From the NCBI GenBank assembly GCA_947629005.1, contig CANRCD010000001.1, positions 285,550 through 349,549 on the forward strand: a stretch of 64,000 bases of DNA. The letters are read 5' to 3'. Of the stretch, positions 11,470 through 33,638 are shown in pieces. Within the stretch, counting starts at the first letter, position 1. Every line of letters starts with the position of its first letter. Under the pieces are notes generated by a model, which worked only from the letters and a program-made list of their open reading frames with translations, was not told the DNA's origin and made no database searches. The DNA comes from an uncultured Clostridia bacterium (lineage in GTDB: Bacteria > Bacillota > Clostridia > UMGS1883). The translations under genes were made by a program, and so were the position numbers.

Positions 11470-12249
11470 ATGGCAAATGGATTTTCCTGCTCGGGAGCCG
11501 GTTACAACAAGTCGGAGCACGACGGAATATACTTCCGCTGGACAGGCGCGGACTACCTTCTGCTATACTTCTCCTCCCCCGCTCTGGTGGCCGGAGCCGA
11601 AACCGCGCCAAACGCCATGCTTGTCTACGGCCCGAATGAAACGCGCGATTACGGCAGCTGCGGCGGCTTTGTGAACAGCTACTGCACGTTTTCGCTGCCG
11701 GCGGAGTCCTTTGACGGCTTTGGCCTTAAAACCGGCACGGTTTTTTATCCGGACAATTTCAGTACAATAAACAAGCTCTTAAAAAAAATCACAGAAGAAC
11801 GCGCATTTTCCCGCCCGCTAAGCGAAAGCATGATTTACGCGCTGATTTTGCAGCTTCTGGCCGAAACTGCCCGTGGGCAAATCTCCGCCGAGGAGCCCCG
11901 CGCAGGCAAGGAGCAGCAGCGAAAGCGCCGCTTTGAGGAGATACGCGAGGAATACCTTTCGGATCTTGTCAATCCGCCGGAAATAAAGGAGCTGATAAGC
12001 GAGGAGTTTTTCTCTCCCTCACAATTTTACAGGCTTTACAAAAAGTATTTCAGTGTGACGCCCAACGAGGATTTGCTTCGGGCGAGGCTGGACTACGCCA
12101 AGGATTTAATGCTGAAAACCGAGCTCAGCACCGCCGAGATTGCCGCCATGACCGGCTTTAAGACGCCGCTGAACCTTTACCGCTGCTTTGGCAAGCGGTC
12201 AGACTGTACGCTTAAGGAATGGAAGAGGGCGGCGAAAAATAGGGAATAA
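11470..12249 (+). CDS. AraC-family transcriptional regulator
   Basis: 259 residues. The N-terminal half is a divergent cupin-like sensor, and the C-terminal 100 residues form the paired HTH domain (FFSPSQFYRLYKKYFSVTPNEDLLRARLDYAKDL, then STAEIAAMTGFKTPLNLYRCFGKRSDCTLKEWKR). ATG 11470 follows AAAGGAGG with ideal spacing. No sugar gene is adjacent, so the target is unknown; the divergent CNNM gene and the downstream GNAT unit are the only neighbours. No clear terminator was seen immediately after it. Confidence 0.88.
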   Translation: MANGFSCSGAGYNKSEHDGIYFRWTGADYLLLYFSSPALVAGAETAPNAMLVYGPNETRDYGSCGGFVNSYCTFSLPAESFDGFGLKTGTVFYPDNFSTINKLLKKITEERAFSRPLSESMIYALILQLLAETARGQISAEEPRAGKEQQRKRRFEEIREEYLSDLVNPPEIKELISEEFFSPSQFYRLYKKYFSVTPNEDLLRARLDYAKDLMLKTELSTAEIAAMTGFKTPLNLYRCFGKRSDCTLKEWKRAAKNRE

Positions 12250-12380
12250 TTTATACATAGCGGCGATCTGCAAAAGCGCAGAGCTTCCATACGGTGCGCG
12301 CGGATTCCATGGTATTACAGGGCCCCTTACGGCCGCCTAAATTGACAGTTACTATTTTTTCAAAAAATCCCGAAAGCGTA

Positions 12381-12409
12381 TTGACTTTTTTGAATATCCA
12401 TGCTATAAT
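12381..12409 (+). promoter_or_regulatory. Strong sigma-70 promoter (extended -10) of the attenuated GNAT unit
   Basis: TTGACT (12381-12386), 17-bp spacer, TATAAT (12404-12409) preceded by TGC, an extended -10. The expected start near 12416 leaves a leader of about 155 nt before the GNAT start codon. Confidence 0.85.
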
Positions 12410-12433
12410 ATGTGTATCAAGCAAAGAAAGCGA

Positions 12434-12488
12434 GGTGGACAAAATGAGTAACTTAACACTGATAAAGTCAACTGCCATTTTGTCCGCT
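12434..12488 (+). promoter_or_regulatory. Leader hairpin enclosing the leader-peptide ORF
   Basis: GGACAAAATG (12437-12446) is a perfect reverse complement of CATTTTGTCC (12476-12485). Wobble and GC pairs extend the stem to about 12434-12446/12476-12488. The 5' arm contains the ribosome site and ATG of the leader peptide, so translation of the leader must melt the stem. An alternative pairing exists: CTGATAAA (12459-12466), inside the leader ORF, with TTTATCAG (12534-12541), which would break the 3' arm of the terminator at 12521-12557. Confidence 0.7.
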
Positions 12489-12494
12489 GTCTAA
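12444..12494 (+). CDS. 16-residue leader peptide of the GNAT gene
   Basis: The ORF encodes MSNLTLIKSTAILSAV and has a good ribosome site (GAGGTGG, 5 bases before ATG 12444). It begins about 28 nt after the predicted transcription start and ends 27 nt before the terminator stem. Position, size and the surrounding hairpins are those of a ribosome-sensing leader, as with erm, cat and other antibiotic-inducible genes. I do not recognise the peptide itself. The peptide probably acts in cis by positioning the ribosome, not as a product. Confidence 0.7.
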   Translation: MSNLTLIKSTAILSAV

Positions 12495-12520
12495 TATAAC
12501 GTTGCTTCTTAGATCAGCTT

Positions 12521-12557
12521 AAATGCCCTTGATTTTATCAGGGGCATTTATTTTTTG
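12521..12557 (+). terminator. Attenuator (intrinsic terminator) directly before the GNAT gene
   Basis: AAATGCCCTTGAT (12521-12533) pairs with ATCAGGGGCATTT (12537-12549) over 13 pairs with one G-U, a 3-base loop and then ATTTTTT. It ends about 15 bases before the GNAT ATG and after the promoter, so the gene can be expressed only by readthrough or antitermination. Confidence 0.88.
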
Positions 12558-12571
12558 AAAGGGGCAGCAAA

Positions 12572-13483
12572 ATGAAGGAAATCATTACAATTCAAACCAG
12601 CAGATTTTTATCGAACGAACTGGCGGAAAAAATTGTCTATGCGCAATGGAGAGGAACTCAGGTCAATCGTTCAATGCGGTATGTATTTGACGAGCTCGTC
12701 AACCACAATGACTGTTTTGACGCAGTGGCTGTAAACTCAAATAACGATGTGGTTGGAAGGCTTCACTGCGTAAAAAATGAAATCAATCCTAAACTTTGGT
12801 ATTATGGGGATCTGTTTGTCATACCGGCTTACAGGCGGATAGGGATAGCCTCTCAATTGGTTCGGGCGGCAATGAGCCGCTTATCCGAAATGGGCGCAGT
12901 CTCACTTTGCTGTTATGTGGAGCCGGACAATATTCCAAGCCGAAATCTTCAGTTATCACTCGGTTTTTCACAGCAGCCGTTCAGGGCCTTCAACAATTTT
13001 ATAAACGACGGAGAGATAATGTACGAGGCAATGGTTTCGAATATTCTCACAGTTATACCTGCCACAGCAAACGAGGCCTATTTTGTGGGAATATTATTTG
13101 CTCAAAACAAAAGAAAGCTGAACACGGAGGATAATATAAGCTTGAGTGAATGGAAAGAGCTGCTTTCGGCAGATGATACCGACGAAAAGCACTTTCTTGT
13201 ATTAAAGGGTGCCATGCCCGTCGCATATATGAAGCTTAACGGACTTGAGAGCACAAGCGAAGCGTGGATATCCATGCTTTTTGCAGCAAAAGATTTTCAG
13301 CATCAGGGAATCGGTTCTTTCGCCATAAAATATGCGGAAGAATATATAAGGGCAAAAGGGATTGCCGCAATAGCAGTTCAAACCGATAAAGACAATTTGC
13401 CCGCGCAAAACTGCTATTTGAAATGCGGATATTCGGTTTTTGAAAAAGGGGCAAAAATAAAATTTCGCAAAATACTCATTTAA
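12572..13483 (+). CDS. Tandem GNAT-domain acetyltransferase under attenuation control
   Basis: 303 residues with two GNAT folds. The first (about 1-160) has LFVIPAYRRIGIASQLV and NIPSRNLQLSLGF; the second (about 165-303) has MLFAAKDFQHQGIGSFAIKY and NLPAQNCYLKCGY. Both keep an acetyl-CoA pyrophosphate loop of the R/Q-x-x-G-x-G/A type. The substrate is unknown. Expression behind a leader peptide and terminator is typical of genes that respond to ribosome-targeting drugs, so self-resistance or drug acetylation is a reasonable hypothesis, not shown. The gene is visibly richer in A+T than its neighbours, suggesting transfer. ATG 12572 follows AAAGGGG. Confidence 0.85.
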   Translation: MKEIITIQTSRFLSNELAEKIVYAQWRGTQVNRSMRYVFDELVNHNDCFDAVAVNSNNDVVGRLHCVKNEINPKLWYYGDLFVIPAYRRIGIASQLVRAAMSRLSEMGAVSLCCYVEPDNIPSRNLQLSLGFSQQPFRAFNNFINDGEIMYEAMVSNILTVIPATANEAYFVGILFAQNKRKLNTEDNISLSEWKELLSADDTDEKHFLVLKGAMPVAYMKLNGLESTSEAWISMLFAAKDFQHQGIGSFAIKYAEEYIRAKGIAAIAVQTDKDNLPAQNCYLKCGYSVFEKGAKIKFRKILI

Positions 13484-13532
13484 GTATTTACATAAAGCCC
13501 ATGCTCATTCGGAGCAGGACTCAACTCCCATG

Positions 13533-13570
13533 CATTAAAAAAAAGCGTATCATTTAACGATGATACGCTC
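13533..13570 (-). terminator. Intrinsic terminator between convergent GNAT genes
   Basis: AGCGTATCAT (13544-13553) pairs with ATGATACGCT (13560-13569). On the minus strand a run of eight T's follows, so it mainly ends the gene at 13584; on the plus strand the following T-rich stretch is weaker. Confidence 0.82.
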
Positions 13571-13583
13571 TTCCATATTTCGT

Positions 13584-14051
13584 CTACAAAATCTTTTCCA
13601 TGCCTATCTTCTGCGGGGTAAGGCCGCATTTTTCATAAAAACGCAGAGCGCTCTTATTTTCGTACCACACGTTCAGCGTGACGTTATAACAGCCTATCTC
13701 CTTGGCGTAGCCCAGCACGTGCTCGTAAAGGGAGCGGCCTATATGCTTGCCGCGAGCGGTCTCGTCCACGCAGAGATCGTCGATGTAAAGGGTCTTTATG
13801 TCGGTCAGCACATTATCGCCGATATGCTGCTGAAGCACGCAGAAGGCATAGCCCAAGACAACTCCGTCCGCCTCGGCAACAAACACGGGGCGGCTCTCGT
13901 CGGCCAAAATGCCGGCCAGCTCTGCGTCGTTATATTTGCGGCAGCCGGGCTTAAACAGGTCGGGCCGGCCCTTGTGGTGAACCATAAGCACCTGATCCAG
14001 CAAATCCGCGAGGCGCGGTATGTCCTTAATTTCCGCTCGTCTTATTACCAT
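13584..14051 (-). CDS. GNAT-family N-acetyltransferase
   Basis: 155 residues, a single complete GNAT fold: IRRAEIKDIPRLADLL at the N-terminus, LYIDDLCVDETARGKHIGRSLYEHV as the acetyl-CoA motif, and NVWYENKSALRFYEKCGLTPQKIGMEK at the end. The substrate is unknown; the C-terminal pattern is common in protein- or polyamine-type acetyltransferases. ATG 14051 follows AAGGAG. The hairpin at 14069-14092 separates it from serA upstream, so it may be read by partial readthrough or from an unseen promoter. Confidence 0.88.
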   Translation of the reverse strand: MVIRRAEIKDIPRLADLLDQVLMVHHKGRPDLFKPGCRKYNDAELAGILADESRPVFVAEADGVVLGYAFCVLQQHIGDNVLTDIKTLYIDDLCVDETARGKHIGRSLYEHVLGYAKEIGCYNVTLNVWYENKSALRFYEKCGLTPQKIGMEKIL

Positions 14052-33368: not shown

Positions 33369-33638
33369 TGTCGTACACCCCGAAATCGACAACAAACCAT
33401 GCACGGTATGGCCGCAGTTAGCTCGGACCAGGCGCCCTCGCGGCACATACGGGTTACCGCTTATTGCTGCTCGGTTCCCCGCCTGACAAGGTTCACGGGC
33501 CCGCATTGCGCGAGACCCGGCCGTCAACGCCACTTACAGCCGCCTGCTGCACAGAATTATTGCCTCAATCAGGGAGTTAGCCCCCGCTATAGCGGATTGC
33601 GGATACAGGGCGCCGCTGCCTCCCCGGTTAGTACGACA
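33369..33638 (-). ncRNA. ffs: Signal recognition particle RNA, large Gram-positive type
   Basis: On the minus strand the RNA has both SRP domains. The S-domain apical stem reads GTCAGG-CGG-GGAA-CCG-AGCAGC, i.e. a GGAA tetraloop with the Ffh-binding symmetric loop. The 5' Alu-like part has CCGGGGAGGCAGCGG and ATCCGCTATAGCGG. The extreme ends TGTCGTAC and GTACGACA are complementary and close the molecule, and T's follow the 3' end, so the length is about 270 nt. It scaffolds Ffh for cotranslational membrane targeting. Its place directly before dnaX matches many Firmicutes. Exact ends are estimated. Confidence 0.93.

Follow-up and report, generated by a model that had tools for sequence, protein, structure and literature searches.

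Upstream of a tandem GNAT acetyltransferase gene in an uncultured Clostridia bacterium lies a leader that probably works as a transcription attenuator operated by ribosomes and puts a second lock on the same gene at the level of translation. The window, by which we mean the whole stretch of DNA analysed, is 64,000 nucleotides of contig CANRCD010000001.1 (positions 285,550 to 349,549, forward strand), and coordinates below are those of the window. We argue that the signal read by this leader would be the arrest of a ribosome at the start of translation, and not the peptide that the leader encodes. The same leader is found in front of many different GNAT genes, nearly all of them from uncultured gut Clostridia.

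Four pairings in the leader

A preliminary description made from the sequence of the window had proposed a consensus promoter, a short leader open reading frame (ORF) with its own ribosome site, a hairpin that buries this site and the ATG, and an intrinsic terminator in front of the GNAT gene. All of these are present (Table 1). Hairpin A is a putative anti-antiterminator, and in the window all 13 of its positions are paired when G-U is allowed. The second pairing is the antiterminator. It had been given as CTGATAAA (12459-12466) with TTTATCAG (12534-12541), and these are complementary, but the full duplex is 13 bp, not 8 (12459-12471 with 12529-12541). The partner of the antiterminator strand is the apex of the third pairing, the terminator, so the two exclude each other, both by sequence and in folding. 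The fourth is helix P3, which is predicted to sequester the Shine-Dalgarno (SD) sequence of the GNAT gene (AAAGGGG, 12558-12564). The five extra antiterminator base pairs, the helix on the GNAT SD and the attachment of the leader to other GNAT families go beyond the preliminary description. The 161-nt leader folds with -53.2 kcal/mol (z = -5.5), and none of 200 shuffles is equally stable.

Table 1. Features of the leader and its gene in the window
Feature	Position	Strand	Remarks
Sigma-70-type promoter	12381..12409	+	TTGACT 12381-12386, 17-bp spacer, TATAAT 12404-12409, extended -10 TGC
Leader ORF SD, GAGGTGG	12432..12438	+	kept in relatives
Leader ORF, 16 codons, MSNLTLIKSTAILSAV	12444..12494	+	ATG 12444, TAA 12492-12494
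Hairpin A, putative anti-antiterminator	12434-12446 with 12476-12488	+	covers leader SD and AUG
Antiterminator strand, CTGATAAAGTCAA	12459..12471	+	+16 to +28 of leader ORF, in hairpin A loop
Intrinsic terminator	12520..12556	+	stem 12520-12533/12537-12550, T6 12551-12556
Helix P3	12501-12510 and 12514-12517 with 12555-12568	+	encloses terminator
Tandem GNAT acetyltransferase, 303 aa	12572..13483	+	PF00583 match, P-loop motif in each half

Eight orthologues of the GNAT were found first (57-74% identical), and all have the whole leader layout save one that is cut by a contig end. An exact-pattern scan of 291 genomes of the class recovered only the window itself, so a covariance model was needed. 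It consisted of hairpin A and the terminator and was run in two rounds (R1, then R2). One Clostridia family has matches, some of them false, in 18 of 196 and in 27 of 395 genomes; that family's order has such matches in 25 of 394 genomes and the window's class in 8 of 371. Two other families gave 2 of 22 and 1 of 193 genomes. About 50 loci remain after some eleven false matches were removed by inspection. The latter have neither hairpin A nor an upstream ORF (uORF): L063, L099, L101, L114, L115/L145, L117, L119, L120, L146, L147 and L148. L118, which may be related, has a uORF whose SD is likewise buried by a hairpin (GGCGGACAGTATG...TTTGTCCGC), and an ATP-binding cassette (ABC) exporter gene follows. 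Searches of plasmids, phages, viral contigs and E. coli genomes yielded no weighty match to the GNAT or the leader. Viral contigs sharing GGAGGTGGACAAAATGA score only 23-32 bits and were not accepted as members.

The pairings are conserved while their sequences are not. Hairpin A, with the uORF SD and AUG inside it, is present in all 47 loci tabulated. Its sequence has been replaced in L113 (GTGAATGATAT/ATATCATTCAC) and in L107, where both arms change and the changes compensate each other. The antiterminator recurs as 9-15 bp with the terminator apex, rewritten between subgroups. In 33 of 36 non-redundant members its native duplex beats 2000 shuffles (p<=0.0045), and the duplex averages -14.5 kcal/mol with native strands against -8.6 with strands swapped between sequence classes. 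P3 pairs better than expected (p<=0.05) in 30 of the 36, with a mean z of -2.7 across unlike sequences. Four stem pairs of the terminator show two-sided changes in nine orthologues; in several loci the terminator was set by hand after automatic detection had missed it. The preliminary description had staked itself on covarying stems in Clostridia homologues, and the stems do covary. An extension of the antiterminator, in which the 3' arm of hairpin A pairs with a downstream CGGAT, was seen in folds but reaches a mean z of only -1.2 (7 of 36 members), and we do not claim it.

Where the ribosome would have to stop

In most of the 36 members, some of them of unrelated sequence, the first base of the antiterminator strand is +16 or +17 of the leader ORF, and in all of them it lies between +14 and +26. 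By analogy with known leaders this is the edge of a ribosome sitting on the start codon. Tetracycline and retapamulin arrest ribosomes on the start codon of E. coli toiL, and the footprint of such a ribosome ends at +16 to +18 (PMC12121999). In B. subtilis vmlR, where a uORF lies in an anti-antiterminator ahead of a terminator and an SD-hiding hairpin, a 30S toeprint is found at +16 of the uORF (PMC9226507).

Folding with a 30-nt footprint placed at each codon in 27 members points the same way. The antiterminator forms in 26 of them when the P-site is at codon 1 and in none when the ribosome is at codons 6-12; arrest in mid-leader would mask the antiterminator strand. A ribosome at codons 1-2 leaves the strand open in these folds, and readthrough is predicted when the ribosome stops at codons 1-3 or close to the leader's end, which is narrower than the preliminary proposal of stalling on the leader. 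With no ribosome present the antiterminator is absent in 19 of the 27. In L034, L060, L100 and L104 it is favoured up to the end of the terminator stem.

We infer the following switch. In the off state the terminator would form: hairpin A would shut the leader SD and AUG, and its loop would keep the antiterminator strand. On any RNA that reads through, P3 would conceal the GNAT SD. In the on state a ribosome arrested at or next to the leader start codon would hold hairpin A open and end just before +16. The freed antiterminator strand could then pair with the emerging terminator apex, so that RNA polymerase reads through and P3 is disfavoured. The usual inducer would most likely be a ribosome-targeting compound.

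Genes behind the leader

The leader almost always lies directly 5' of a GNAT acyltransferase gene, and -35/-10-like sites occur at the same distance upstream in most relatives. Downstream proteins match PF00583 in 41 of the 47 loci and NAT_N/GNAT_C in two. The sole clearly non-GNAT protein is a predicted ABC-class P-loop ATPase (PF09818) behind the L106 leader (1501-1657 region, minus strand); the remaining three are taken to be truncated GNAT genes. The GNATs fall into at least five unrelated clusters and include tandem and single forms, two unrelated groups, a NAT_N/GNAT_C enzyme and fusions of two GNAT domains with a kinase fold. In the L107 protein an L056-type domain is fused to what is, in the tandem type, the N-terminal half. 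L149 (1578-3470, minus strand) and L150 (449-2329, plus strand) encode GNAT-GNAT-protein-kinase-fold chains of about 630 aa, with the kinase fold called from a PF00069 score below its cut-off. These fusions recall bifunctional AAC-APH enzymes, and L053 holds a decayed relative.

Some loci depart from this layout. The L116 leader has no co-oriented gene, those of L051 and L053 precede decayed GNAT starts, and L054 stops at a contig end. In L112 the leader ORF runs into the start of the GNAT gene, pointing to translational coupling of the two. In L059/L097 an inserted element resembling a miniature inverted-repeat transposable element (GGGCTGTT...AACAGCCC) lies between leader and GNAT and displaces the terminator. 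L113 and L034 have what appears to be the 3' end of a tRNA gene close upstream of the leader, and this may be an integration site.

The window GNAT matches PF00583 in two stretches (3e-28), and an acetyl-CoA P-loop motif can be read in each half (RRIGIA and QHQGIG). Domain and motif (Q/R-x-x-G-x-A/G) place it in the GNAT superfamily. Its structure model is of moderate confidence (pLDDT 72.6, pTM 0.57). The structures that match its fold best are tandem GNATs with varied functions (2wpw, 5kf1, 7wx5/6wqb), at 13-16% identity and a template modelling score of about 0.3-0.4 over the whole chain. PamZ is a tandem GNAT that gives self-resistance to paenilamicin, disabling this ribosome inhibitor by N-acetylation (PMC9054821). 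Compared at the level of the GNAT fold it resembles the window protein in having two GNAT domains in one chain, but its acetyl-CoA P-loop is in the C-terminal domain only, whereas both domains of the window protein carry the motif.

The promoter, leader and gene of the window were most likely gained together by horizontal transfer, as an AT-rich unit of about 1.2 kb. The region 12350-13550 has about 40% GC against about 53% in the chromosome. Seven congeneric genomes align, in parts, on both flanks, and none covers about 12240-13578 or holds a GNAT orthologue of comparable identity. The closest protein found is 73% identical and comes from another Clostridia metagenome-assembled genome. A second, single-domain GNAT (13584-14051, minus strand) faces the tandem GNAT, and a hairpin terminator at about 13545-13570 separates the two convergent genes. 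The tandem GNAT has its own promoter and leader. As a type II GNAT toxin it would want an antitoxin partner, and none is found; its neighbours are an AraC-type regulator and the opposite-strand GNAT.

Weighing the attenuator

It must be noted that several observations weigh against a ribosome-operated attenuator of resistance genes. The antiterminator fails the shuffle test in L106, L111 and L121. Among the nine close orthologues alone its covariation is weak (56 of 500 shuffles reach it), and because of this the case for it rests on the wider set. L098 and L112 have no terminator and keep the leader ORF. A ribosome at the stop codon would also free the antiterminator strand in many members. 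It would no longer do so in the leaders that extend beyond hairpin A (L061, L096, L100, L107), so arrest at the start is the common denominator. The antiterminator is still predicted without a ribosome in 8 of the 27 members. In the window leader the antiterminator is the less stable of the two once the terminator is complete, so readthrough there must be kinetic, with the antiterminator forming first. The folding considers nested structures only, and hairpin A and the antiterminator may coexist as a pseudoknot. Finally, no leader-linked GNAT reaches the cut-off of AAC, Sat or other curated resistance families.

This last point bears on what the enzymes do. Weak sequence matches include AAC(6'), streptothricin, RimI and spermidine acetyltransferases, the resistance-type ones far below curated cut-offs. 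One can therefore imagine that the attenuator works as proposed while the GNATs acetylate a component of the cell, such as a polyamine, a protein or a tRNA, in a general response to translation stress. This is possible, and we hold it to be the less probable case. At least five unrelated clusters and mosaic GNAT-GNAT and GNAT-GNAT-kinase-fold fusions fit xenobiotic detoxification better, as does the patchy, horizontally acquired occurrence. Since many unrelated GNATs sit behind one putative ribosome-arrest switch, we argue that they most likely inactivate ribosome-targeting compounds by N-acetylation.

The logic of the switch could also be inverted. A ribosome-free pseudoknot of hairpin A and antiterminator would then be the on state and leader translation, by masking the antiterminator, the off state, and what the element detects would be that the leader is no longer translated. 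With 12 + 13 + 4 nt the loop of hairpin A has the length that such a pseudoknot requires, and the eight members that prefer the antiterminator without a ribosome would fit. The other 19 would not. Inversion also leaves the +16/+17 start of the strand unexplained and gives hairpin A no role as an off state, so we consider it unlikely.

Leader-peptide attenuators of the erm and cat type also combine a leader ORF with alternative hairpins. There a specific nascent peptide together with a specific drug would halt translation at an internal codon. All 47 loci tabulated retain an open frame, of 15-34 codons, and the loops of the L055, L105 and L107 leader ORFs change length in threes (3-nt indels), therefore frame seems to matter. 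The residues LIKS.A(V/I)LSA recur within the close group. However, LIKS and AVLSA are encoded where the RNA pairs, in the antiterminator strand and in the 3' arm of hairpin A. A compensated +1/-1 moves that strand by one base in L103, after which the original frame resumes. A different frame runs through the 3' arm in the L061-L062/L094-L100 group, and in L113 the arm is rewritten. Pairing is retained in every one of these cases and the peptide is lost. A nascent peptide that is conserved and has a stall site inside it is not found among the relatives; wherever the RNA is rewritten (L103, L113 and the L060-L062/L094-L100 group) the peptide varies freely. A ribosome halted at codons 6-12 would, moreover, mask the antiterminator. 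Peptide sensing of the erm type is improbable because the leader peptide is not conserved. The leader ORF is most likely translated and its product irrelevant. Of the ribosome-mediated attenuation first proposed for this locus, the translation-dependent attenuator with hairpin A, antiterminator and terminator is supported, and the sensing of a drug by the leader peptide is not.

A small-molecule riboswitch or protein-binding leader with an incidental ORF would suit a structured and conserved leader, but it is very improbable: the leader matches no Rfam family at gathering score, each helix is rewritten somewhere, the constants are the SD, the AUG, the open frame and complementarity, and no conserved unpaired ligand-binding core is seen. 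The sole Rfam match in the window lies elsewhere and is a bacterial large signal recognition particle RNA (RF01854, 203 bits; 33371-33636, minus strand).

Relation to known attenuators

The ribosome-operated attenuator argued for here is a mechanism of a known kind. Its proposed switching logic matches that of B. subtilis vmlR, and the architectures agree in having a uORF within an anti-antiterminator hairpin, an antiterminator, an intrinsic terminator and a separate SD-hiding helix. The vmlR gene encodes an ABCF factor behind a uORF for the tripeptide MIN, whereas the present leader has an ORF of 15-34 codons and would control GNAT acyltransferases rather than an ABCF protein. Unlike vmlR, its antiterminator is aimed at the terminator apex and its terminator is nested within the SD-hiding helix. 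The toiL-topAI leader is alike in that its uORF reports start-codon arrest by several drug classes, but it controls SD access and Rho-dependent termination, has no intrinsic terminator and belongs to a toxin-antitoxin operon (PMC12121999). From the erm and cat leaders the family differs in that their peptide-specific internal stalling is not supported for it. Literature searches in an open library gave no description of this leader motif. In the literature searched there thus appears to be no account of this RNA family or of its attachment to GNATs, nor of the start-codon ruler and the nested SD lock.

What the leader may mark

The same switch before many different GNAT genes suggests an unrecognised inducible defence against ribosome-blocking compounds. 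The fullest form of the argument is that this is a new attenuator family, moved between gut Clostridia with its gene, that reports start-codon arrest and is devoted to acetyltransferases of mosaic make-up, as well as to their fusions with a kinase, directed against ribosome-targeting compounds of the gut. We regard this as evenly balanced. If it is true, the antiterminator is a natural one whose position measures the footprint of the initiating ribosome. The leader would mark genes with products that the cell needs once its ribosomes are jammed on start codons. GNAT superfamily members are too many and too alike to be annotated by homology, and in uncultured gut bacteria the leader would single out uncharacterised members as probable resistance enzymes under inducible control. 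It would also point to ribosome inhibitors that are made or encountered in the gut.
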